Source: a virus. From it: DNA of 28,255 bases. The stretch covers positions 25,655 to 53,909 of IMG/VR virus record IMGVR_UViG_3300003322_001190; one strand, 5' to 3'. Below the pieces are notes generated by a model. That model searched no databases. It saw only the letters and a program-made list of their open reading frames with translations, and was not told where the DNA came from. This document shows, in pieces, positions 1 to 11,488 of the stretch (positions are counted from its first letter, which is position 1; every line of letters starts with the position of its first letter). A program made the position numbers and the translations under genes.

Positions 1-641
1 TTCATGGACTTCACGAGAGCATCAGCTCTCCAGCTCAACGTAGTCTGAAAGATGCCCGCGAAGCGGTCCTCCCGGGCGTGCCTCCGGGCCGCCTGGGTAC
101 GGTCCTCCACCGTGCGCCCTCCCGGCGCCGAGCGGGCGTCCTGGTACCCCTGTGAGAGCGCCTGCTCCCAGATGGCCTTGGCGTACATGGCGTCACCCCT
201 GATGGAGGCAGCCTCCTGCTCCCAGGCGAACAGCCGGACCGTGATGCGGAAGAGGAAGTCCCGCACGTGCGCCGAGGTGAGCCGGGAGTAGTCCTCGATG
301 TACCCGCCAGTGTCGGTGCGGGCCCACATGGTGAAACCGTGCTCGTCCTCCTGGATCTCCTGGGTCACCGGATCCACCAGGGGCTCACGGACGATCTCGT
401 ACAGATCGTTGATGATCACGTACGCATCGCCGAAGCGCTCCAGCATGATCCGGTCGGCGATCCCCCGCAGCCCGTCCACGGCGTCCTGGTCCTCCGGCCG
501 CAGGTCGTGCCGCATGCGGCCCTCCCGGCGCGGGGTGAACTCCTGGGTGCGGTCGTCATGAGGCTCCACGGACATGGGCCGGTCGGCCTCCGCCGACTCG
601 TCGCGGATGATCTGGTCCTCGGTCCGGTCGTCCTCAGACAC
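1..641 (-). CDS. Unknown phage protein, C-terminus beyond the window
   Basis: An open frame runs from a GTG at 641 to the left edge with no stop, giving at least 213 residues. The GTG overlaps the stop of the upstream RuvC-like gene by 8 bases (GTGTCTGA), the kind of tight coupling seen throughout this window. The protein starts MSEDDRTEDQ and has an acidic, Arg-rich, probably disordered first 50 residues. A more regular, helix-rich part follows, containing the stretches VDGLRGIADRIMLERFGDAY and FRITVRLFAWEQEA. I see no catalytic motif, signal peptide or membrane segment and do not recognise a family. Third-position G/C bias agrees with a real gene. Its place at the end of the recombination-nuclease cluster hints at DNA metabolism, but that is only context. 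Confidence 0.8.
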   Translation of the reverse strand, partial: MSEDDRTEDQIIRDESAEADRPMSVEPHDDRTQEFTPRREGRMRHDLRPEDQDAVDGLRGIADRIMLERFGDAYVIINDLYEIVREPLVDPVTQEIQEDEHGFTMWARTDTGGYIEDYSRLTSAHVRDFLFRITVRLFAWEQEAASIRGDAMYAKAIWEQALSQGYQDARSAPGGRTVEDRTQAARRHAREDRFAGIFQTTLSWRADALVKSM

Positions 642-1251
642 GGTGGATCGCCTTCAGGCCGACGAAGACCGCGTCCCGCACGTGCTCCGTCCACGCACCG
701 GTGCCCTTCTCGTGCCAGGTCACCAGGGATTCCACGACGTCGCTGGAGACCTTCTTCGTGGCCCCCTTGTCCCCACAGAGGGCCGCAGCGGCCGAGGTGC
801 GGGAGACGAACGTGGGCCACGGCTTGCCGATCCGGTCCAGTTCGATACAGATCGTCACGGCGGCCACGAGAGAGGACTCCGTGCGGTACCCGGTGACCGA
901 CGGCAGTTCGATGACCACTTCGTCGTACGAGTACAGATGATCTCCGAGCAGCGTCCTGAGCCGCCGGGCCAGAACCACGGCCTTGGTGAAGGTCCCCTCG
1001 AAGCCCTTGGTGTCCACCTGGGGCGGCCGGATCGTGCCGGAGTGGGCCACGTGGATCTGGTTGCGGGTGCCCAGCAGGGCCCAGCCGCAGTTGTTCAGGG
1101 CCTGGTCAAAGCACAGGACCTTGCGGTCCGGCTCGAAGTCGTCCGGCAACGGGGGGCGCCAGTCCTTGGCGGGCTGGACCTTCCGCGCTCTGGCGGCCTC
1201 TTCCTTGATCCGCCGGAGGATCTCCTCCGGCAGCATGCTCGTCACGCTCAT
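634..1251 (-). CDS. RuvC-like Holliday junction resolvase (RNase H fold)
   Basis: This 205-residue protein fits a RuvC-type resolvase, which cuts four-way DNA junctions with two metal ions. The first strand VLCFDQALNNCGWALL places the catalytic Asp at D49. The second acidic residue is E115 in EVVIELPS. The C-terminal helix HVRDAVFVGLKA supplies H190 and D193, matching the HxxDA pattern of the family. About 40 charged, Lys/Arg-rich residues precede the fold. The ATG at 1251 follows AGGAGAGACC, and just upstream lies the start-associated motif described separately. The stop overlaps the next gene. In the phage it would resolve recombination or replication intermediates before packaging. Family membership is inferred from the motif pattern; it could also cut other branched structures. 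Confidence 0.85.
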   Translation of the reverse strand: MSVTSMLPEEILRRIKEEAARARKVQPAKDWRPPLPDDFEPDRKVLCFDQALNNCGWALLGTRNQIHVAHSGTIRPPQVDTKGFEGTFTKAVVLARRLRTLLGDHLYSYDEVVIELPSVTGYRTESSLVAAVTICIELDRIGKPWPTFVSRTSAAAALCGDKGATKKVSSDVVESLVTWHEKGTGAWTEHVRDAVFVGLKAIHRV

Positions 1252-1256
1252 GGTCT

Positions 1257-1270
1257 CTCCTGGCGGGATC
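1257..1270 (-). promoter_or_regulatory. Start-associated motif with RBS, RuvC-like gene
   Basis: The minus strand reads GATCCCGCCAGGAG just before the ATG at 1251. The part GATCCCGCCA recurs exactly at three other gene starts (4438, 8258 and 21127). AGGAG is the ribosome-binding site, so the motif is an extension 5' of the Shine-Dalgarno sequence. Confidence 0.6.
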
Positions 1271-2114
1271 AGATGGTTCGGATGGTGCAGCCCGTGGCGG
1301 CGCAGGAACCGGCCTCAGGGCTCCGTACGGCGCAGCAGGGCTCCGGCATGTAGCCGGTGTCGGCCCAGCTCCTCACGCGGCGGTACTTGGCCTCCAGGGC
1401 CAGCACGTACGCGGCGTCGTACTCGACGTGGATCTCCTTCATGACCCAGGGGAAGCCCATGCCGATGAACAGCATGATCATCATCCGGAGGCCGGAGAGG
1501 GCCATGTACTCCTGCATCTGGCCGTAGTAGTACGGGTGCTTGGTCTTCAGCCACTCCAGCGCCTTCTCGCTGGTCGGCCCGTCCGGGATCTTGGCGGCCG
1601 AGAAGTGGTTGATGGTCTTGATGTCCAGGCCGGTCATGCCGAGGGACGGGGTGAGCACCACGCCGTCCATGTGGCCCCGGCGCTTCAGTTCGTGGTCGAC
1701 GACCCCCGGCTCCCCGCACTGGCCCTCCTTGGGGCCGTACGGGCGCGAACAGGCCGGGCAGGTCCCCTGGGGGATCTGCCAGATCCGGAGGTCCCTGAGG
1801 GCCATCTGGACGATCTCGTGCTCCAGGGTGCCCACGGTGACCGACATGCGGCCCTCGTAGCTCCAGGGCTCCGGCTCCCACCGGTCCGGCTGGGTGAGGT
1901 ACAGGTAGAGCTTGCGCTCCGGCATGGTCGGGTGGGTGGAGGGCCAGAACCAGTCGTTGGGCTCCCGGTCGGGATCCCCGCCCTCCAGCCGGATCATCGT
2001 GTTTCGGGGGAACCGGCCCTCGGCGATGTAGAGACGCACCAGCGGCGCGAGGACGTAGCCGCTTGCGGCGGCAGCCCCCTCGCGCCGCATAGCGGCTTCA
2101 GGATCGAAGCTCAT
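1269..2114 (-). CDS. Cas4/RecB-family PD-(D/E)XK exonuclease
   Basis: This 281-residue protein carries the RecB/Cas4 nuclease motifs in order: GTLEHE (H99), GHMDG (D150), LDIKT (D164, K166) and QMQEY (Q199, Y203). Proteins of this family resect DNA ends and often hold an Fe-S cluster. Here C119, C122 and C133 form one Cys group inside the fold, and C260, C261, C271 and C276 lie in the C-terminal tail. Whether they bind Fe-S or zinc cannot be told from sequence. The start ATG at 2114 overlaps the previous stop (ATGA), so translation is probably coupled. The N-terminus FDPEAAMRR is almost the same as that of the ssDNA-binding protein at 9302. Likely role: end processing for RecA-type recombination. 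Confidence 0.85.
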   Translation of the reverse strand: MSFDPEAAMRREGAAAASGYVLAPLVRLYIAEGRFPRNTMIRLEGGDPDREPNDWFWPSTHPTMPERKLYLYLTQPDRWEPEPWSYEGRMSVTVGTLEHEIVQMALRDLRIWQIPQGTCPACSRPYGPKEGQCGEPGVVDHELKRRGHMDGVVLTPSLGMTGLDIKTINHFSAAKIPDGPTSEKALEWLKTKHPYYYGQMQEYMALSGLRMMIMLFIGMGFPWVMKEIHVEYDAAYVLALEAKYRRVRSWADTGYMPEPCCAVRSPEAGSCAATGCTIRTI

Positions 2115-2548
2115 CGGCAGCAGTCACAGCCCTGGGTCATCGTCAGCTCGATCTTCTTGCTGGCGATCCTCTCGCTCAACTCCTGCTGGGCCTGCCACTT
2201 CCGGGCGTCCGCGAGGACCTCGGCAAAGAACCGGGAGTCCACCACGGTCAGGTCGGTGTCGACCTTGCGGAGCGTCTCGTCCGCGTAGAAGCGCAGGTGC
2301 AGCGAGGGCTCCATGCCCTGGAAGGTCTGCTCCCTGGCCTTGGCCCACATGTCCCGGGTGATGCCGATGGACTTGCCCAGGGTGGACTTGCCGTCCCCGG
2401 CCATGGCGTACGGGACGGCCGGGTCGTTCACCACGTCCATCTGGTTGTGCCACTGGTTGCCGGAACCCTTCTGGACGCGGCCCTTCAGCCACTCGGCGAT
2501 GTCCGCCTCATGCGCGTCGCCCATCTGCTGGTTCAACGTCCTCGGCAT
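2111..2548 (-). CDS. Small nuclease-like protein, possible Hjc-type resolvase
   Basis: This 145-residue protein begins with a helix that has the spacing of archaeal-type Holliday junction resolvases (GDAHEADIAEWLKGR). It continues with KGSGNQWHNQMDV and then AGDGKSTLGKSIGITRDMW, where D and K could form the (D/E)xK part of a PD-(D/E)XK site. It ends in a Cys-rich tail (CDCCR). The start at 2548 has a good ribosome-binding site (GGGAGGATCAGG) lying inside the upstream gene, so the 41-bp overlap looks real. It sits between a Cas4-like nuclease and a RecA-like recombinase, which fits recombination. The nuclease assignment is tentative because the acidic residues are not all placed. It could instead be a non-catalytic DNA-binding partner. 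Confidence 0.7.
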   Translation of the reverse strand: MPRTLNQQMGDAHEADIAEWLKGRVQKGSGNQWHNQMDVVNDPAVPYAMAGDGKSTLGKSIGITRDMWAKAREQTFQGMEPSLHLRFYADETLRKVDTDLTVVDSRFFAEVLADARKWQAQQELSERIASKKIELTMTQGCDCCR

Positions 2549-2915
2549 CCTGATCCTCCCACAGCTTGTTCTTGACGGTCTCGCAGTAGACCGCGATGTG
2601 CAGCAGCCCGGCCGGACCTGCCTCGGGCCAGATCAGTACGCGCTCGCCGGGGTGGATGACCCGGCCGTGGCAGATGCAGCGCTTGGAGATCTCGGGGATC
2701 TCCGGGTCGTAGTCCCGCCACTCCGGCACGAGGCCCTCCCAGGCCCGCCGGGGGCGGTCCTTGCGCCAGTTATGACGCAGGACCTGTCGCCGGTAGAGCC
2801 TCCAGCCCCCGGCGACCACCAGCGCGGCCATCAGGCCGGTGAGGACGCCGAAGAGGAAGGAGGTGACCTGGAAGAACCAGGTCAGGAAGTCGAGGAACGC
2901 GAAGAAGTCATCCAT
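2508..2915 (-). CDS. Membrane-anchored protein with a Cys/His cytoplasmic domain
   Basis: This 135-residue protein has one or two N-terminal membrane segments (roughly residues 3-40, ending FGVLTGLMAALVVAGGW). A very basic stretch (RLYRRQVLRHNWRKDRPRR) follows, predicting a cytoplasmic C-terminal part by the positive-inside rule. That part contains a CxCH group (KRCICHGRV), a His in GLLHIAVYC and another Cys, a possible metal site. The ribosome-binding site is poor (a G-run 5' of ATG 2915). It lies between the recombinase and nuclease genes, which is odd for a membrane protein. It could tether replication or recombination factors to the membrane, but this is speculation and no family was recognised. 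Confidence 0.75.
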   Translation of the reverse strand: MDDFFAFLDFLTWFFQVTSFLFGVLTGLMAALVVAGGWRLYRRQVLRHNWRKDRPRRAWEGLVPEWRDYDPEIPEISKRCICHGRVIHPGERVLIWPEAGPAGLLHIAVYCETVKNKLWEDQDAEDVEPADGRRA

Positions 2916-2954
2916 GGGGACCCCCGGGATTTGCTGTGGTGTGCATCACTCCTA

Positions 2955-4040
2955 TCACCCCCGCCGGAACTCGATGGAGGCCTCGGGGGTCAGCTCACCG
3001 GCGATCGACTCCAGGGACTTGGCCCGGACGGCCTCCAGGGCCTTGGGGTCGTCCCGCAGGCGCCTGATGGCTGCGGCCTTGCCGTTCTCCTTGGTGCCGT
3101 CGGGGAAGACCCAGTAGTGGCCGTTGCCCTTCACCAGAGCCTCGGTCTTCACGCCGACGTCGAAGGCCTCGGCGGCCACGTCGATGCCCGCCGGGTTGCC
3201 GTCGAACTCGACCTTGTTGAACCAGAACTTCGCGATCCCTCCGGCCGTACGGAGCTTGCTGCGCTCCACGCGGGCGGTGACCGTGTGGGCGACCTCGATC
3301 TCCTGGCCGTCGCTGTCCTTGATCTTGGTCGTGTCCTCGGCGCCGAAGCCTCGGCGCATGACCACGGAGTCCGTGGTGGTGTAGCCCATGATCATGGGAC
3401 CGGCCGCCTTGTCCCCGCCCATGGCGAAGTCCGTGCGGTACTGGTTCACCAGGATCGTGCCGGTGTTGGAGTCGTTGCCGATCACCGCAACCTGCTTGCA
3501 CAGGCGGGAGATGACCTGGGCGTTCTTGCCCATGTCGCTCTCCTCGGCGCCCTTCTCGTACATGGCCTCCGCGCGCTCCATGGAGCCGATGGAGTCCACG
3601 CCGACGAGGGAGAACAGCTCCGAGCGGAGCATGTCCCGCAGGATGTCCGAGACCTCCTCGGAGGACTGCGGCTTGACGTACAGCAGGCGCTTCTTGCTGA
3701 CATCGATCCCCATGGCCTGCGCCCGCTCCCAGGTCCAGGTGCGCTCCATGTCGATGTAGCCGACCTGGAGGTCCGGGTACTCCTTCTGGGCGTTGGCGAG
3801 GCCGATCATCACCATGGCCGTCTTGCAGCAGCCCGGCTTGCCGATGACCTGGTGCATGCGTCCACGGGCCCAGCCACCTCCCAGAGCGACGTCCAGCCCC
3901 GCGACGCCCGTCGGGACGTACAGGATCTCCTCGGCCGTCTCGTGGCGCTCCACGCGGTCTCCGTAGCGCTTCTCCATCTGGGCCCGGAAGGCATCCAGGG
4001 AGGACGGCGGAGAGTAGGCCTTCTTGGTCTTCGGGGGCAT
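2955..4040 (-). CDS. RecA/UvsX-like strand-exchange recombinase
   Basis: This 361-residue protein has the RecA core. It shows a P-loop region at 67-74 (GKPGCCKT), a YIDMER strand with E99 at the place of RecA's catalytic Glu, a Walker B strand LVGVDS (D149), and ILVNQYR (N199, Q200) followed by the Gly-rich loop region. It should coat ssDNA and drive homologous pairing for repair and recombination-dependent replication. The invariant Gly of the P-loop is replaced by C72. As I recall, T4 UvsX also departs from the consensus there (GPSKSFKS). The open frame extends to 4559, but ATG 4040 has AGGAG at proper spacing, the conserved fold starts after it, and the extension overlaps the next gene in another frame. 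It lies 8 bases after the stop of the gene at 4049. Confidence 0.9.
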   Translation of the reverse strand: MPPKTKKAYSPPSSLDAFRAQMEKRYGDRVERHETAEEILYVPTGVAGLDVALGGGWARGRMHQVIGKPGCCKTAMVMIGLANAQKEYPDLQVGYIDMERTWTWERAQAMGIDVSKKRLLYVKPQSSEEVSDILRDMLRSELFSLVGVDSIGSMERAEAMYEKGAEESDMGKNAQVISRLCKQVAVIGNDSNTGTILVNQYRTDFAMGGDKAAGPMIMGYTTTDSVVMRRGFGAEDTTKIKDSDGQEIEVAHTVTARVERSKLRTAGGIAKFWFNKVEFDGNPAGIDVAAEAFDVGVKTEALVKGNGHYWVFPDGTKENGKAAAIRRLRDDPKALEAVRAKSLESIAGELTPEASIEFRRG

Positions 4041-4048
4041 CGGATCTC

Positions 4049-4438
4049 CTACTGGTTCCGGGCGTTGCCGAGGGTCTGGCTGTTGCCGAACCTGGTGTCG
4101 TGACTGACCTGGGCCGGACCCCGGTACTCCAGGGCGCTGGCCGTCTGCGTGGTCCCGGTGGGCTCGGCGTCGCCCAGGAACACCTGGACGTACTCCTCCG
4201 GGCTGCTCGCGATGTTCCTGCGCTGGCCGTCGATCTCCAGCGAGGTGGCGGACTGGACCCACTGCCCCCGGAAGAGCCGGTAGGTGCAGGTCATGCGGAC
4301 ACGGTCGTTCTCGTGCTCCAGCACGAGGTGGATCCCCCGGCGGACCACCGTGGGCTCCACCGAGGTGTGCTCGGTCAGGAAGTCCCGGAGGATCCGGATG
4401 AAGGGCGGGACGTGCTCTGGTCGCACGGGTGAGGACAT
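4049..4438 (-). CDS. Unknown 129-residue protein between polymerase and recombinase
   Basis: The protein has an alpha/beta look: an N-terminal helix (PPFIRILRDFLTEH), then alternating strands (GIHLVLEHENDRVRMTCTYR, QWVQSATSLEID) and a polar tail rich in Thr, Ser and Asn. There are no Cys clusters, membrane segments or catalytic motifs that I recognise. The ATG at 4438 is preceded by AAGGAGATCCCGCC, which combines a ribosome-binding site with the start-associated motif. It is separated by 12 bases from the polymerase gene and by 8 from the recombinase gene, so it is in the same transcription unit. A role as an accessory factor for either neighbour is possible but unsupported. Confidence 0.8.
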   Translation of the reverse strand: MSSPVRPEHVPPFIRILRDFLTEHTSVEPTVVRRGIHLVLEHENDRVRMTCTYRLFRGQWVQSATSLEIDGQRRNIASSPEEYVQVFLGDAEPTGTTQTASALEYRGPAQVSHDTRFGNSQTLGNARNQ

Positions 4439-4447
4439 GGCGGGATC
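4438..4447 (-). promoter_or_regulatory. Start-associated motif directly before ATG 4438
   Basis: The minus strand reads GATCCCGCCA, ending on the A of the start codon. Unlike the other copies, the Shine-Dalgarno sequence (AAGGAG) lies 5' of the motif rather than 3', so the 10-mer is conserved while its order relative to the RBS is not. Confidence 0.5.
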
Positions 4448-4450
4448 TCC

Positions 4451-7400
4451 TTACACAGGGAGGTATTCCTGCACGATGTAGCCCTTGTCGTCGGCCTGCT
4501 TCTCCAGGACGACCAGACAGAGCTGACCCTCGTGCATACCGGTCTTGATCTCGGCCCACTTCCGGGGGAAGCAGACGGCCTCCACGGTGGACAGCTCGGT
4601 GTCCAGGTTCAGGAAGGCCATCTCGTCCCCGCTGGCGCGGGTCTTGGTCTTGCGGATGCCCATCAGGATCGCGGCGACCGTGTACATCCGACCCGCGTCC
4701 CCCTCAGGCATCTCCTCAGCGTCTCCCAGCAGGCGCTGCCGGTCGACCGGGTCGAGCCGGTCGAACGGGGTCGACGAGAGGAACACCCCGAGCAACTCGT
4801 GCTCGATCGCCCGGATCGTCTCGTCGTCGTACGGCTCCACGGAGCCCAGGTCCAGCGGGGGCCGGGGCGTGTACTGGCGGCAGGCCTTGGTGCAGCGCTT
4901 CGGCGGGGGCTTCCTGGGGAGGACCTTGAGGGTCCTCGGGTTGACCGGCGGCTCCTCGGTGCTCCAGTCGAACCCGCAGCCCGCCGGTGCGCCCTCGTGG
5001 CAGGTGCCGGAGCCGAGGTGGACGCACTTCGCGTCCTCCTTGCTCTTGCGCATCTCCAGCAGGCGCACCAAGCCCGCGCGATGGGGCTCCAGCGAGTCCA
5101 TGGCGCCGACCTTGGCCAGCAGCATCTGGATGCCCGCGTTGGCACCGGAGCCCTTCTGGGTCACGTACTCGTCGAAGGCCTCCCAGGAGGTGTACGGCTG
5201 CCCGGCGATCAGGTAGTCGACGGCGGCCTCGCCGATGCCGTTGATCGCGTCCAGCCCGTAGCGGACGGCCAGCGGCTCGGCCTGGAAGCCCTTGCGGGAG
5301 GCGTTGATGTCCGGCGGGAGCACGGTGTACCCGTTGCGGCGCACCTCCTTGATGAACTCCGGGATCCGCTTCTGGTCGATCGTGCTCAGGGCGGCCGTGA
5401 AGAACTCCACCGGGTAGTGGAACTTCAGCCAGGCCGTCCAGTACGCGAGGACTGCGTAGGCGTACGCGTGGGCCTTGCCGAACGAGTACTTGGCGAACTC
5501 GGCCATCTGGTCCCACAGGTGCTGGGCGGCCTCGCGCTCCATGCCGTTGGCCACGGCCCGGGTGACGAACTCCTGGCCTGCCGGACCGATCTTCTCGATC
5601 TTCTTCTTGCCGAGGATCTTGCGGACCTCGTCGGCCTCGTCGGAGGTGTAGCCGCCCAGGACGATGCAGGCGGACATGATCTGCTCCTGGTAGATCATGC
5701 AGCCCCAGGTGGGACCGAGGATCTCCTCCATGCGGGGGTCGGGGTAGCTCACCGGCTCCAGCCCGGCCCGCCGCTTCAGGTACAGCTCGGTCAGGCCGGA
5801 GCGCATGGGGCCCGGCCGCACCAGGGTGATCATGTCGCACAGCTCGGCCAGCGTGAGCGGGCCCATGCGCTGGCACAGCCGGGTACCGGCGTGCGTCTCG
5901 ATCTGGAAGATCCCGAGGGTCTTGGCCGCCGCGACCTCTTCCCAGACCTGCGGGTCCTGGTACTCCTCCTGCCAGTCGTAGACGTCCACCGAGACGTCCC
6001 GGATCTCCTTGACCAGGTCCACCGTCCATTGGACTGTGTCCAAAGTTCGAATGGTGAGGATGTCGAACTTCACCAGGCCCATGGACTCCAGCGCGTTCAT
6101 GTCGAACTGGGTGACCATCCGGCCGTCCTCGCCGCCCATGAGCGGGAGCCAGCCGGTCAGGGCCCGGTCCGTGGAGATCACGACACCGGCCGCGTGCTTG
6201 CCGTAGCTCTTCAGGCGTCCCTGGAGCCGGTCCGCCATGGAGAACAGTTCGGGGTACTTCTCCCGGTAGGGCTGGAGGTCGTCACCGAACTGGGCCCACA
6301 GGTCCTCCCAGGCCATGCCGAGACCGGCCTTGTCCGACTCCGCCAGCTTCACAATGTCGGCGACCTTCGCCATGTCCTTGTGGACCTCTGCACGGCGCTC
6401 TGCGAGCCTCTCCCGGGCCCGGCCGATGGCGGAGTCCACCCCGGACTCCAGAGCCTCGTCCAGGGCCGCCTGCTCCTTGGCGACCATCACAGACATCATC
6501 GAGCGCGTGAGGTCCTTGACGATGCCCTTGGACTTCAGGCGCAGGTGCGTGCCGATCTGGACCACGAAGTCGGCCCCGTAGGTGTCGGCCAGGTACCCGA
6601 GGATCTTCTCCTTCATGGACGCCGGGAAGTCGACGTCGAAGTCCGGCAGGGAGGTCCGGCCCTCGGTCATGAAACGCTCGAAGGGAAGGTCTCCCTCCAC
6701 CGGGTCGATCTCGGTGATCCCGCACAGGTACGCGACCAGGGAGCCGCCGCCGGAGCCGCGTCCCGGACCCACGAGGATGCCCTCCTCCTTGGCCCACCGG
6801 CAGTAGTCGGCGACCATCAGGAAGTACCCGCAGAAGTCCTTCTGCTTGAGCAGGGCGAACTCCCGCTCGAAGCGGGCCATGTAGTCCTCGGACCGGCCTT
6901 TGGTCTCTACCTTGGACCAGCTCGCCAGACAGACGTCCAGGAGACGTTCCGTGTCCCTCTTGTGGCCGCCCTTCTTAGAGAAGACCGGAGGTTCGGGTTT
7001 GCCCCCGATCCGCGCGTCCGTACGGGTGACAAGGTCGAGCGTGTTGCCGACCGCCTCTTCGACCGCTTCAGGACCGAGGTAGGCCAGCCCGCGCCGGACG
7101 TCCTCCTCTGTCTGCATGTAGAGATCAAGGTTGACTGCGAAGAGGTCTCCCTCGTCGGCGACGTCCTTGTCCGTCTGGACGGCGATCCAAGCCTGATGAG
7201 CATCATGGTCAGTCTGCTGGGGGTAGTGGGAGTCGACCGTGGCCATGAGGGGGACCCCGAACTCCTTCCCCAGACGGACCATCGCCTCATTGACCTTGCG
7301 CTGCTCTGCGAGCGCATTGGGCTGCACCTCCAGGTAGAAACGGTCCCCGAAGATGTCCAGGAGCTTGGCCAGGTTCGTCCGGGCCAGCCCCTCGTCGTCG

Positions 7401-8245
7401 TTGAGGACCGGGACGGCCAGGGGGCCACGGAGGCAGCCGGAGGCCGCCATGATGCCCGTGGAGTGCCTCCGGAGGGTGTCCCAGTCCATCCGGGGCTTCT
7501 TGTCGTACATGCCGTCGCGGAAGGACTCCGTGGACATGGCCCAGAGGTTGTGGAGCCCCTCGTCGTCCATGGCCCACAGAATCAGGTGGTGGTACCCGTA
7601 CCGGATCTCCCTGTTCTGCTCGGGGGTGTTGTCCGGCGAAGAGCGGGCGAAGCGGTCGTCCTGGAAGTACGCCTCGATGCCGAAGACCGGCTTGATCCCG
7701 GCCTTGTCGCACTCGGCCTGAAGCTCGGGGTGGCCGGAGACTCGTCCGTGGTCGGTCAGGGCCAGGCCGGGCTGGCCGTCGGCCACCGCCTGGGCCACCA
7801 GTTCGGAGACGGTGCTCAGGCCGTCCAGGGAGGAGTACTCCGCGTGGGTGTGGCCGTGCACGAAGCCGGTACGGGCCAGGGTCTGCCGGGGGATCACCAG
7901 TCCCCCGCGCGGGGCCGCGTAGACCTCGGAGTAGTCGGGTACGTGGTCGAACAGGGACCACGAGGACCGGGGGATGACGTAGTTGGGCCGACGCTCCTCG
8001 CGGTCCTCCGCGAAGCGCTCGGCCGTCATCGCACGGATTTTAAAATCGGAAGGGGAGATGATCCCCACGGCACCGGCGGCACTCGCGCGGGCCCACAGGG
8101 GTCCGTAGACCTCGTCGGCCGAGTGGTGCAGCAGCCAGCGCATGCCGTCCTCGGTGCTCTCCACGAGGCAGACGGCAGGGTACGTACGGCCCTCCAGGAC
8201 GATCGTGTCCTGGCGATCGGCCATGTACGACTCGATCAGTTGCAC
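4451..8245 (-). CDS. dnaE: DNA polymerase III alpha subunit (DnaE-type) with PHP domain
   Basis: This 1264-residue C-family replicative polymerase starts with about 128 residues not typical of DnaE. A PHP domain follows: HGHTH at 130-134, LALTDHG at 161-167, GIEAYF near 190, and MATVDSHYP with a later DHDAH. Its metal ligands look intact. The palm has GPGRGSGGGS, the catalytic pair PDFDVDF near residues 534-540, and the third Asp in VKFDIL near 728, plus HAAGVV and FGKAHAYAYA. Near 1071-1122 lies a Cys-rich insert (CVHLGSGTCHEG to KRCTKAC), a possible zinc site, followed by an OB-like C-terminus. GTG 8245 was chosen because CAGGAGGACCT precedes it; ATG 8224 has no good RBS. With no DnaQ homologue seen, the PHP site may proofread. 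Confidence 0.95.
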   Translation of the reverse strand: MQLIESYMADRQDTIVLEGRTYPAVCLVESTEDGMRWLLHHSADEVYGPLWARASAAGAVGIISPSDFKIRAMTAERFAEDREERRPNYVIPRSSWSLFDHVPDYSEVYAAPRGGLVIPRQTLARTGFVHGHTHAEYSSLDGLSTVSELVAQAVADGQPGLALTDHGRVSGHPELQAECDKAGIKPVFGIEAYFQDDRFARSSPDNTPEQNREIRYGYHHLILWAMDDEGLHNLWAMSTESFRDGMYDKKPRMDWDTLRRHSTGIMAASGCLRGPLAVPVLNDDEGLARTNLAKLLDIFGDRFYLEVQPNALAEQRKVNEAMVRLGKEFGVPLMATVDSHYPQQTDHDAHQAWIAVQTDKDVADEGDLFAVNLDLYMQTEEDVRRGLAYLGPEAVEEAVGNTLDLVTRTDARIGGKPEPPVFSKKGGHKRDTERLLDVCLASWSKVETKGRSEDYMARFEREFALLKQKDFCGYFLMVADYCRWAKEEGILVGPGRGSGGGSLVAYLCGITEIDPVEGDLPFERFMTEGRTSLPDFDVDFPASMKEKILGYLADTYGADFVVQIGTHLRLKSKGIVKDLTRSMMSVMVAKEQAALDEALESGVDSAIGRARERLAERRAEVHKDMAKVADIVKLAESDKAGLGMAWEDLWAQFGDDLQPYREKYPELFSMADRLQGRLKSYGKHAAGVVISTDRALTGWLPLMGGEDGRMVTQFDMNALESMGLVKFDILTIRTLDTVQWTVDLVKEIRDVSVDVYDWQEEYQDPQVWEEVAAAKTLGIFQIETHAGTRLCQRMGPLTLAELCDMITLVRPGPMRSGLTELYLKRRAGLEPVSYPDPRMEEILGPTWGCMIYQEQIMSACIVLGGYTSDEADEVRKILGKKKIEKIGPAGQEFVTRAVANGMEREAAQHLWDQMAEFAKYSFGKAHAYAYAVLAYWTAWLKFHYPVEFFTAALSTIDQKRIPEFIKEVRRNGYTVLPPDINASRKGFQAEPLAVRYGLDAINGIGEAAVDYLIAGQPYTSWEAFDEYVTQKGSGANAGIQMLLAKVGAMDSLEPHRAGLVRLLEMRKSKEDAKCVHLGSGTCHEGAPAGCGFDWSTEEPPVNPRTLKVLPRKPPPKRCTKACRQYTPRPPLDLGSVEPYDDETIRAIEHELLGVFLSSTPFDRLDPVDRQRLLGDAEEMPEGDAGRMYTVAAILMGIRKTKTRASGDEMAFLNLDTELSTVEAVCFPRKWAEIKTGMHEGQLCLVVLEKQADDKGYIVQEYLPV
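8036..8047. repeat. AT palindrome GATTTTAAAATC, inside the polymerase gene
   Basis: This perfect 12-bp palindrome lies within the coding sequence for the polymerase's N-terminal extension (residues DFKI). TTTTAAAA is very rare in this G+C-rich sequence. It is one of four related sites, the others being at 15349, 21193 and 25375. Confidence 0.6.
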
Positions 8246-8250
8246 AGGTC

Positions 8251-8267
8251 CTCCTGCTGGCGGGATC
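8251..8267 (-). promoter_or_regulatory. Start-associated motif with RBS, polymerase gene
   Basis: The minus strand reads GATCCCGCCAGCAGGAG before GTG 8245. It matches the copies at 1257 and 21123 except for a 3-base insertion between the motif and the Shine-Dalgarno sequence. It supports GTG 8245 as the real start. Confidence 0.6.
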
Positions 8268-8269
8268 AA

Positions 8270-8324
8270 GACAGCCACCCGCGCCTCAACCGGGGCCCAA
8301 GGCAACCCGGCGCGGGTGGCTGTC
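8270..8324 (-). terminator. 16-bp perfect stem-loop between SSB and polymerase genes
   Basis: Arms at 8270-8285 and 8309-8324 are perfectly complementary, with a 23-base loop. The hairpin lies between the stop of the ssDNA-binding protein gene (8349) and the polymerase start. On the minus strand it is followed by TTGATCC rather than a U-run, so it may be a weak terminator, an attenuator that lowers polymerase relative to SSB, or an mRNA-stabilising end. Confidence 0.7.
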
Positions 8325-8348
8325 GTTCAGTGGGTCGTGGTCAGAGAC

Positions 8349-9302
8349 CTACGACCGGGTGATCCGCGCCTTCATGGCGGCCAGGGCGTCCGCGTTGGGC
8401 GTCGCCGGGGCGCTGCCCGAGGGGGTGCCGCCGGAGCCGCCCGAGGACTTGCCCGAACCCTTCGCGGCCGGGACCAGCTCGCCGGTCTCGCGGCGGACGT
8501 CCACCGAGGCGAAGCCGTCCTCCTCCAGGAAGAACTTCTTGTAGTAGTCGTCGGTGGTCTTCGAGTAGATCATCGTCGCCAGCTTGATGCCGAACGCGTC
8601 CACCGCGAGCTGGTAGAACTCCCAGTGGTCGGTGCCCGGGAGGATGTCGGGGTCCTTGTCCAGCGGGAAGACCTGGTAGATCGTGCCGGTGCCCGAGGGG
8701 TTCTTGACGCGCTTGATGCGGTAGTCCCGGTCCATCAGCGTGTCGTACGACTCGCCGCAGGACTTCAGCGAGTTCATGAGCATGTACATCGTGTTCGAGA
8801 CGATCACGATGGACGGGACGGAGACCTTCTCCTCGGTCGGCTTGCCGTCCTCGCCGAGGACCGGGATCTCGACCATCTTGTCCCGGTAGGCCTTGCGGCC
8901 GGTCGTCTCGTCCTTGTACGCCTCGCGCTCGACCGCCAGGGTGTAGCGCAGGTCGTCGCCCTTGTTCTCCTTGCCGTACTTGTTCTTGTACCCGGACTGG
9001 CACAGCGGGCAGCCCTCGGGGTACAGGTGCGCGAACGCGGGCTCCTGGCGGCAGGTGGCGGGCATCGCCGACGGCCACTTGCCCTCGTAGTCGGCGGGCT
9101 CGGCCTTGGTCGGGAAGAAGCGGTGGGTGCGGGCGCGGTACCAGTCGGCGGACTCGCTCAGAAAGCGGAGGATCGCCTCCTCGCCCTCCTTGAGGTCCCA
9201 GTGCGGCTCCTTGCGGAAGCCGCCTCCGGCACCACGGTTCTCGTCCTCGTCGTCGCCACGGCGCAGTGCGGCCTCGGGGTCGAAGTCGGGCGCGATCGTC
9301 AT
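8349..9302 (-). CDS. Probable ssDNA-binding protein (gp32-like, zinc-binding)
   Basis: This 317-residue protein has the pattern of phage gp32-like ssDNA-binding proteins: a basic/aromatic N-terminal OB region (LRFLSESADWYRARTHRFFP), a zinc group C84-x7-H92-x5-C98-x2-C101, and a long core. A Gly/Ser/Pro linker (about 280-305) leads to a short C-terminal tip (DALAAMKARITRS). Gp32 tails are normally acidic; this one is not. The N-terminus FDPEAALRR at 7-15 is shared with the Cas4-like nuclease. ATG 9302 has GAGGAG at good spacing. It would coat unwound DNA and coordinate polymerase, helicase and recombinase. The assignment rests on the zinc pattern and the position next to the polymerase gene, without an alignment. 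Confidence 0.7.
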   Translation of the reverse strand: MTIAPDFDPEAALRRGDDEDENRGAGGGFRKEPHWDLKEGEEAILRFLSESADWYRARTHRFFPTKAEPADYEGKWPSAMPATCRQEPAFAHLYPEGCPLCQSGYKNKYGKENKGDDLRYTLAVEREAYKDETTGRKAYRDKMVEIPVLGEDGKPTEEKVSVPSIVIVSNTMYMLMNSLKSCGESYDTLMDRDYRIKRVKNPSGTGTIYQVFPLDKDPDILPGTDHWEFYQLAVDAFGIKLATMIYSKTTDDYYKKFFLEEDGFASVDVRRETGELVPAAKGSGKSSGGSGGTPSGSAPATPNADALAAMKARITRS

Positions 9303-10324: not shown

Positions 10325-11488
10325 CTAGGGGTTGCAGGGGCCCTCATGGGCCCGGTTCTTGCACCGATAGCAGTACAGGGTCTCAGGGCGCCTCCAGATG
10401 CCCCAGGGGACCGCTGCGGCCTTCAGGGCCACCGCTTCCTCTGCGGGCAGCTCCTGAGCGTCCTGGGACCACGGTGAGTCCACGACGAGGACCTCGGTGT
10501 AGTGGGCGAGCTGCTCGGCCAGTCCCGGCTCCGCCTCACGGCCCTCAGGACGCTCCCTGGTCGGCCGCTCCTCGGGCCTGCCCTCCACGGCCTTCCATCC
10601 GGCGTCGTCGTTGTCCATCCACAGGATCACGCGCTCGTGCTTCACGAGACGGCGGACCTGCATCTCGGTGAACTTGGCCCCGAACAGGGCCTCCGAGTGG
10701 AAGTGTTCCTCGTGGGTGATCGCCGACAGCATGGCCTCCATGACCACGGCCTCCGGGGCACGGGGGTCGTAGTTGAAGACCGTGGACTCCTTGGGGAAGT
10801 CCGCGCTGGAGAAGTACTTGGGCGACCTCGGGTTGCCGGAGTGGATGTCCACCGCCTCCTCCCCGTCCTTGCGGGGCGGCCGGGGAACCCACTCCTCGGA
10901 GCGCCACTCGGGCGGCAGCTTGCGGGACTGCCAGCCGACCAGGGTCCCCTGCCAGAAGTGCGGGATCACCACCCGGTCCCACATGGGATCCCAGCCGAGC
11001 TGGAAGCGGCGGTACAGCTCCGGGGAGATCCCCCGCTCCTCAATGAGGTACGGGTGGTCGAAGGCCCAGCTCTGGAGGATCCGCTCGGAGTACCGGGGGA
11101 TCGGCTGGGTCTCCGCCTTGGCGTAGACGGCGTCCAGGAAGCGGAGCATGGCGTCCAGCTCCAGGACCTGGCCACCGAGCCCGGCGGTCTCCTCCAGCCA
11201 CCCACGGGCCTCCTGGGAAGTCCCTCCCCGGCAGGTGGCGATGAACCACAGCAGACCGCCGGATGACCCACAACCCAGGCAGTTGTAGGTGAGCTTCTTG
11301 TAGTTGAGCGACGCGGTGGGGTTCTTCTGCTGGTCCCGGTGCAGGCCAGGAGAGACCAGACAGGCGTGGACCATCTCGCCGGTCTTGTCGTTCACCCGGA
11401 CGGAGGACACCCCGAACTCGGAGAGCAGCTCCTCGCACAGGGCCTTCTTCGAGGGGTCCGGCAGCATGGCGGCTTCGAAGTAGCTCAT
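10325..11488 (-). CDS. DnaG-like primase
   Basis: This 387-residue protein starts with a primase zinc-binding domain (C43, H50, C70 and C73, the last pair in NCLGCG) that would recognise the template. The RNA polymerase core follows with a TOPRIM fold: E251 in VVMEAMLSAI and the acidic cluster MDNDDAG (D292, D294). The usual EG of TOPRIM is EA here. A second possible metal group ends the protein (YCYRCKNRAHEGPC). The frame is open to 11767, but ATG 11488 overlaps the previous stop (ATGA) and the zinc domain begins shortly after it. The protein is shorter than cellular DnaG (about 600 residues) and lacks a clear helicase-binding domain, as is common in phages. It would make primers for the polymerase at 4451. 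Confidence 0.88.
   Translation of the reverse strand: MSYFEAAMLPDPSKKALCEELLSEFGVSSVRVNDKTGEMVHACLVSPGLHRDQQKNPTASLNYKKLTYNCLGCGSSGGLLWFIATCRGGTSQEARGWLEETAGLGGQVLELDAMLRFLDAVYAKAETQPIPRYSERILQSWAFDHPYLIEERGISPELYRRFQLGWDPMWDRVVIPHFWQGTLVGWQSRKLPPEWRSEEWVPRPPRKDGEEAVDIHSGNPRSPKYFSSADFPKESTVFNYDPRAPEAVVMEAMLSAITHEEHFHSEALFGAKFTEMQVRRLVKHERVILWMDNDDAGWKAVEGRPEERPTRERPEGREAEPGLAEQLAHYTEVLVVDSPWSQDAQELPAEEAVALKAAAVPWGIWRRPETLYCYRCKNRAHEGPCNP

Follow-up and report, generated by a model that had tools for sequence, protein, structure and literature searches.

The replication module and its genes

The window analysed here, a stretch of 28,255 nucleotides, is part of the 53.9-kb IMG/VR record IMGVR_UViG_3300003322_001190. 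Its genes for the single-strand DNA-binding protein (SSB) and for a Cas4-like nuclease both recur, at 100% identity, in the 156-kb record 3300003316_000301 (hereafter G001). The window contains the replication/recombination module of a large actinophage, with RuvC, the Cas4-like nuclease, HJR, a UvsX/RecA-like recombinase, a DnaE-like polymerase, SSB, a DnaJ-like protein, primase, a DnaB-like helicase and a loader. The identical module order is annotated in three Ceeclamvirinae, Myrna, Tonenili and ET08, as well as in Skog, Pupper, RedWattleHog, E3, Finch and Phrappuccino, and the relatives compared in this study are other actinophages of about 100-160 kb that have the window's gene order. The features of the window that are relevant here are the following:

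634..1251, minus strand: RuvC-like resolvase with the N-terminal extension MSVTSMLPEEILRR (PHROG RuvC-like, E 9.1e-10)
1269..2114, minus strand: Cas4-like exonuclease, 281 aa (PHROG exonuclease, E 1.1e-21; Cas4-domain exonuclease, E 1.9e-6)
2082..2108, minus strand: putative tail peptide FDPEAAMRR, nuclease residues 3-11, kept or co-varied in relatives
8349..9302, minus strand: SSB, 317 aa (match to the PHROG profile for this protein)
8358..8399, minus strand: SSB C-terminal tip NADALAAMKARI (alignments; helix 304-316 in the AF2 model)
9258..9284, minus strand: putative tail peptide FDPEAALRR, SSB residues 7-15, with an acidic GDDEDE run after it
10325..11488, minus strand: DNA primase, start MSYFEAAM (PHROG DNA primase, E 1.2e-37)

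Based on its profile match and its PD-(D/E)xK residues, the nuclease fits the Cas4/RecB-like exonucleases. In an alignment with relatives, D150, D164-x-K166 and Q199-M-Q-x-Y203 are nearly or fully invariant, and seven cysteines (C119, C122, C133, C260, C261, C271 and C276), candidate ligands of an Fe-S cluster, are invariant in six relatives. The AF2 single-chain model of the nuclease was poor, and no docking site was discernible in it.

The annotated phage SSB family phrog_1607 was matched by 16 of the 20 members of the SSB family, and the gene lies in the position of the annotated SSB in Myrna, Tonenili, E3, Finch, Skog and Phrappuccino. The protein has no sequence match in the PDB and no Pfam family; OB-fold proteins (RPA, SSBs) were listed by Foldseek for its model, but at E 0.15 or worse and a TM of about 0.1. 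In the AF2 model, residues 9-16 form a low-confidence helix, the tail has a pLDDT of about 30, and a docking site is not discernible. The C-terminal tip is constant across relatives whose N-terminal tails differ, and it is thus a separate element; its segment LAAMRARI, which resembles EAAMRRE, was for the same reason rejected as a copy of the tail. As regards the zinc-binding cysteines that a gp32-like core would have, the window SSB contains CPLC and C84, and the orthologue in the relative G005 reads GCAIDRS at CPLC, with the second cysteine gone.

A peptide shared by the nuclease and the SSB

The nuclease begins with MSFDPEAAMRREG and the SSB with MTIAPDFDPEAALRRGDDED. The preliminary description had placed FDPEAAMRR at residues 3-11 of the former and FDPEAALRR at residues 7-15 of the latter, and both peptides were confirmed there. 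It had also argued that the resemblance is no recent DNA duplication, and the codons bear this out: the two nine-residue stretches agree at 8 of 9 residues and 20 of 27 bases, and identity at just 2 of the 9 codons (seven differ) excludes a recent DNA copy. No further occurrence of DPEAA[LM]RR was found in the six frames of the window. When the whole collection was searched for DPEAAxRR, genuine N-terminal cases were confined to the window's clade, and a scan of the collection for EAxLRRG[DE] gave nothing useful among the matches listed.

Among the 192 N-termini of G001, the nuclease was the first-ranked match to the SSB tail. Some pair as good was obtained in 2 of 200 shuffled G001 gene sets, which corresponds to a coincidence of about 1 in 100 for one genome. 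The peptide match within one genome, taken alone, is therefore suggestive, and the relatives must decide.

Co-variation of the two tails in related phages

An N-terminal tail is present on the SSB in every genome compared. Close relatives keep the peptide on both proteins (SSB/nuclease: FDPEAALRR/FDPETALRR in G002, FDPEAALRR/FDPEVALRR in G003). With greater distance the sequence changes and the resemblance within a genome persists, as in G004 (EIEALLRR/DYEALLRR) and in G005 (DDDLIERGD/LDDLFAREGD), although the remaining G005 nuclease is 71% identical to that of the window. Further pairs were read in L253 (FNRGITQTSS/FRKLISQTSN), L267 (MPFGTGGD/SPFATMAD), L273 (VEIDFGGHM/VEIDFGSVM), the L262 group (NFRRGG/SFRRVG), L274 (SKFRSG/SKFGTV) and L020 (PEFN/PTFN).

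These resemblances were evaluated by a permutation test, in which each SSB was paired with a nuclease from another genome. Across 26 genomes the observed score was 468 vs 306.8 +/- 25.2 (z 6.4), a value reached in none of 100,000 permutations, and with one genome for each of 13 lineages z was 5.2 (again 0 of 100,000); the metagenomic start codons in both tests were partly picked by eye. With automatic starts, by which many nuclease starts were misplaced, the signal was weaker and still significant (z 2.8, p 0.004). Among the cultured phages alone, the SSB and exonuclease tails did not pair above chance (z -0.4 to -1.2), with Myrna as the exception. The nuclease scores were weak in L265, L269, L271 and L274, so that the tail in these lineages may be shorter or less strict. 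By this cross-genome comparison, the match between SSB and nuclease is far more than chance would give.

As to whether relatives drop the peptide from one of the two proteins, the outcome mostly favours the preliminary description: the metagenomic relatives change both tails together. Against it, the exonuclease has no clear match in most cultured phages, where it is the primase that matches.

Other proteins that carry the tail

Additional carriers were found when the N-termini of each genome were compared with the tail of its own SSB. The primase is one of them: it reads DNPFGTG in L267, where the SSB has EMPFGTG, and TKFTSGASAAK in L274, where the SSB has SKFRSGAEEAAK. RuvC also carries the tail in L274 (LSKFRIG, with the same sequence in L277), and the primase and RuvC, both identified by profile, were the best two of the 159 N-termini of L274 against the SSB tail. 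A third carrier is a 65-aa zinc-ribbon protein (EEIEAMMRR in G001, EEAEALLRG in G004), which together with the nuclease made up the best two of 198 N-termini in G004.

The cultured phages show the same pattern in their primases (primase vs SSB): VAKTGLAAM vs MAKTGLKAI in the Mycobacterium phage Myrna, VRTGIGAIR vs ARTGLDALK in Skog, VKTGIGAIR vs AKTGLDALK in Pupper, and KRGFGFIQ vs ATGFGAM in Tonenili and ET08. A start codon followed by A-K-S/T-G-L/F occurs just three times when both strands of the 164,602 bp of Myrna are searched, and these three sites are where the primase, the SSB and the exonuclease begin. The zinc-ribbon protein, whose gene comes after that of the exonuclease, begins with VKTGFGG in Phrappuccino, MAHKGFS in Pupper and MANRGFA in Skog, sequences that again resemble the local SSB and primase tails.

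The pairing of SSB and primase was significant by permutation in the 11 genomes in which an additional segment precedes the primase domain (z 4.5-4.8, p 1e-5), and no signal was found in the nine genomes without such a segment. In eight cultured phages, for which deposited starts were used except for the Phrappuccino SSB (start taken 26 codons downstream), p was 0.004-0.014. With automatic start calls, the SSB-primase signal was not significant.

Six further proteins of the module, namely the loader, DnaB, DnaJ, the polymerase, RecA and HJR, gave no match to the SSB tail by permutation in the eight cultured phages. The primase of the window's clade is without the tail, and its orthologues in other lineages bear one of SSB type; the start MSYFEAAM of the window primase was rejected as a tail, because FEAAMLP recurs in the primases of relatives as a normal conserved segment (FEAGMLP in L267). 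Likewise, PEEILRR in the window RuvC was rejected, as it belongs to a conserved helix of its own ([VL]PEE[IV]LxRI in the clade) that does not co-vary. The co-variation, together with the same tail on additional replication proteins, gives good sequence support to the earlier proposal that these proteins dock on the same partner through a short N-terminal peptide.

Proposed docking site and alternative explanations

Unrelated proteins that share a peptide changing in concert point to a single, co-evolving site encoded by the phage, because a conserved host partner would fix the peptide. From the sequence comparisons and by analogy with T4, we consider it somewhat probable that the peptide is a selected, co-varying N-terminal docking tail for a single partner encoded by the phage, with the SSB core as the likeliest candidate. 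Copies of the SSB tail front otherwise unrelated enzymes of single-stranded DNA, namely the Cas4-like exonuclease, often the primase, the zinc-ribbon protein and, in one lineage, RuvC. Within a given phage every copy would fit the same phage-encoded socket, and drift of the socket would make all the tails drift too. As in T4 gp32, each SSB would attach through its N-terminal tail to the core of the next, which would make the filaments cooperative, and an enzyme bearing the same tail might plug onto a free SSB core, for example at the end of a filament, and thereby be recruited to single-stranded DNA.

The SSB core is favoured over the polymerase, helicase or recombinase suggested in the preliminary description, since the SSB is the sole family that always has the tail, since T4 gp32 offers a precedent, and since the core has diverged in G005. 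Compared with the window, the SSB core of G005 is 49% identical vs 71% for the nuclease, 68% for the primase, 68% for the polymerase, 67% for DnaB and 62% for the loader; this argument from divergence of the core at a tail switch rests on the one lineage G005. In G004 the SSB core is 48% identical vs 58-65% for the other proteins, a smaller gap than in G005.

A rather unlikely alternative is that the docking motif is shared as proposed and the socket lies on a third protein (the DnaE-like polymerase, the helicase, RecA/UvsX or an unknown hub), on which the SSB and the enzymes compete or co-assemble. The evidence of shared, co-varying tails fits this alternative equally well, it is equally simple, and phage T7 provides a precedent in the acidic C-terminal tails of gp2.5 and gp4 that contact the polymerase (PMC12593628 for gp4). 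Against it, the polymerase, DnaB and the loader of G005 show no unusual divergence at the identities given above, in contrast to the SSB core; for RecA the identity is 53-58% in each of the close comparisons, so that G005 does not stand out.

That the tails act as degradation or localisation signals, by which the proteins would be removed or placed together (e.g., through N-terminal recognition by ClpX), is improbable. The N-terminal site and the presence of the tail on several replication proteins would suit such a role, and an N-terminal ClpX motif is known in lambda O. But a conserved host protease would not make tails change in step between phage lineages, and the tail is absent from the polymerase, the helicase and RecA. 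It is more improbable still that the match arose by coincidence, from a bias in composition or through copying of DNA from one gene start to another, for the equally good pairs in shuffled sets of one genome and the weakness of some lineages are outweighed by the codon differences, the cross-genome permutations and the six module genes without signal, and for the group overall the permutations have already refuted coincidence, single weak lineages apart.

If the docking site is indeed the SSB core, the tail could be regarded as a phage-specific code by which the enzymes of single-stranded DNA (nuclease, primase, zinc-ribbon protein, resolvase) enter the SSB filament in the way SSB subunits do, with the code drifting between lineages. 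This extension is put forward tentatively.

Comparison with known systems

SSBs that dock through a tail are well known, and in T7 different proteins share such terminal tails. The acidic C-terminal tail of T7 gp2.5 contacts the polymerase, and the tails of gp2.5 and gp4 are interchangeable. The acidic C-terminal tails of gp4 bind gp5 at its basic patches, and gp5 binds both gp2.5 and gp4 better in the presence of thioredoxin (PMC12593628). T7 thus resembles the present case in that an SSB and a primase-helicase have similar terminal tails for one partner, the polymerase. The T7 tails, however, are C-terminal and acidic, whereas those described here are N-terminal, varied and lineage-specific, and they also occur on a nuclease, a zinc-ribbon protein and RuvC.

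In T4, cooperativity comes from the N-domain of gp32, which attaches to the core of the adjacent SSB (PMC12893549; PMC3016280). This N-domain (B-domain, with the LAST motif) is likewise a short N-terminal segment on a phage SSB, but LAST is KRKST, a sequence unrelated to FDPEAALRR and to the other tails. In the consulted parts of the same reports it is described just as an SSB-SSB contact and not as a tail shared with enzymes (PMC12893549; PMC3016280). The likeness to gp32 is drawn here as an analogy; the searches gave neither a PDB sequence match nor a significant fold match for the SSB of the window. The C-terminal tip of bacterial SSB is also a tail that serves as an interaction point for enzymes (PMC9917605). 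There, one tail meets pockets on many partners, whereas here the partners would themselves bear N-terminal copies of the tail of the SSB.

A literature search of incomplete coverage found no account of an N-terminal tail shared in this way between an SSB and enzymes. As far as could be seen, the N-terminal, lineage-specific and co-varying tail on SSB, nuclease, primase, zinc-ribbon protein and RuvC is undescribed.

Significance for actinophage replication

Unrelated enzymes that bear the N-terminal tail of the SSB and change together with it would be a new arrangement. It would allow the proteins that join SSB-coated DNA to be predicted from sequence alone for the hundreds of actinophages already sequenced, among them Myrna and the Bxz1-type phages, and it also predicts partners for small proteins without a name, of which the zinc-ribbon protein is one. 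For tests of specificity, the lineages provide a ready-made set of tails and sockets in matching and non-matching pairs. If the tail code is real, its drift would separate the machinery of each phage from that of co-infecting relatives.

SSB and RuvC

The C-terminal tip of the SSB, D-x-L-A-x-[LM]-[RK]-A-R-[IVL] (positions 8358-8399 in the window, and the SSB C-termini of relatives), is kept across lineages with differing N-tails and is probably a second, constant interaction site. RuvC (634-1251, minus strand, and relatives) carries an N-terminal extension of 25-45 aa with a helix of its own, [VL]PEE[IV]LxRI, that is kept in the window's clade; the extension is absent from the RuvC of phage E3.

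Zinc-Ribbon, DUF6011 and Exonuclease Proteins

A family of zinc-ribbon proteins of 61-101 aa was found at six loci, and its annotation in cultured phages is hypothetical, nothing more.

Zinc-ribbon proteins
L041:1915-2112, minus strand
L047:3840-4037, plus strand
L054:18070-18255, plus strand
L345:10885-11148
L340:15988-16233
L033:15657-15962

The N-terminus of the zinc-ribbon protein resembles the local SSB tail in sequence, and its gene adjoins the exonuclease gene in Phrappuccino, Pupper and Skog. A 238-aa DUF6011-containing protein of the L271 genome (L338:2740-3456, minus strand) has RPAFRTGAPAA near its N-terminus, similar to SPAFRKGGDVA, the SSB tail of that genome. The exonuclease of ET08, a Bxz1-type phage, is 587 aa long (L344:10560-12323), and its nuclease domain contains what looks like an inserted intein (VELKSLACSTPILTT ... 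VPTHNTQNSR), which the Tonenili exonuclease lacks.

Occurrence in Streptomyces Assemblies

The replication module of this phage group is also present on Streptomyces assembly contigs of approximately phage-genome size, which suggests that these are phages of the group, either extrachromosomal or carried.

Streptomyces contigs with the replication module
NZ_SSBL01000019.1 (L251), 152,548 bp
NZ_MULI01000008.1 (L252/L265), 156,949 bp
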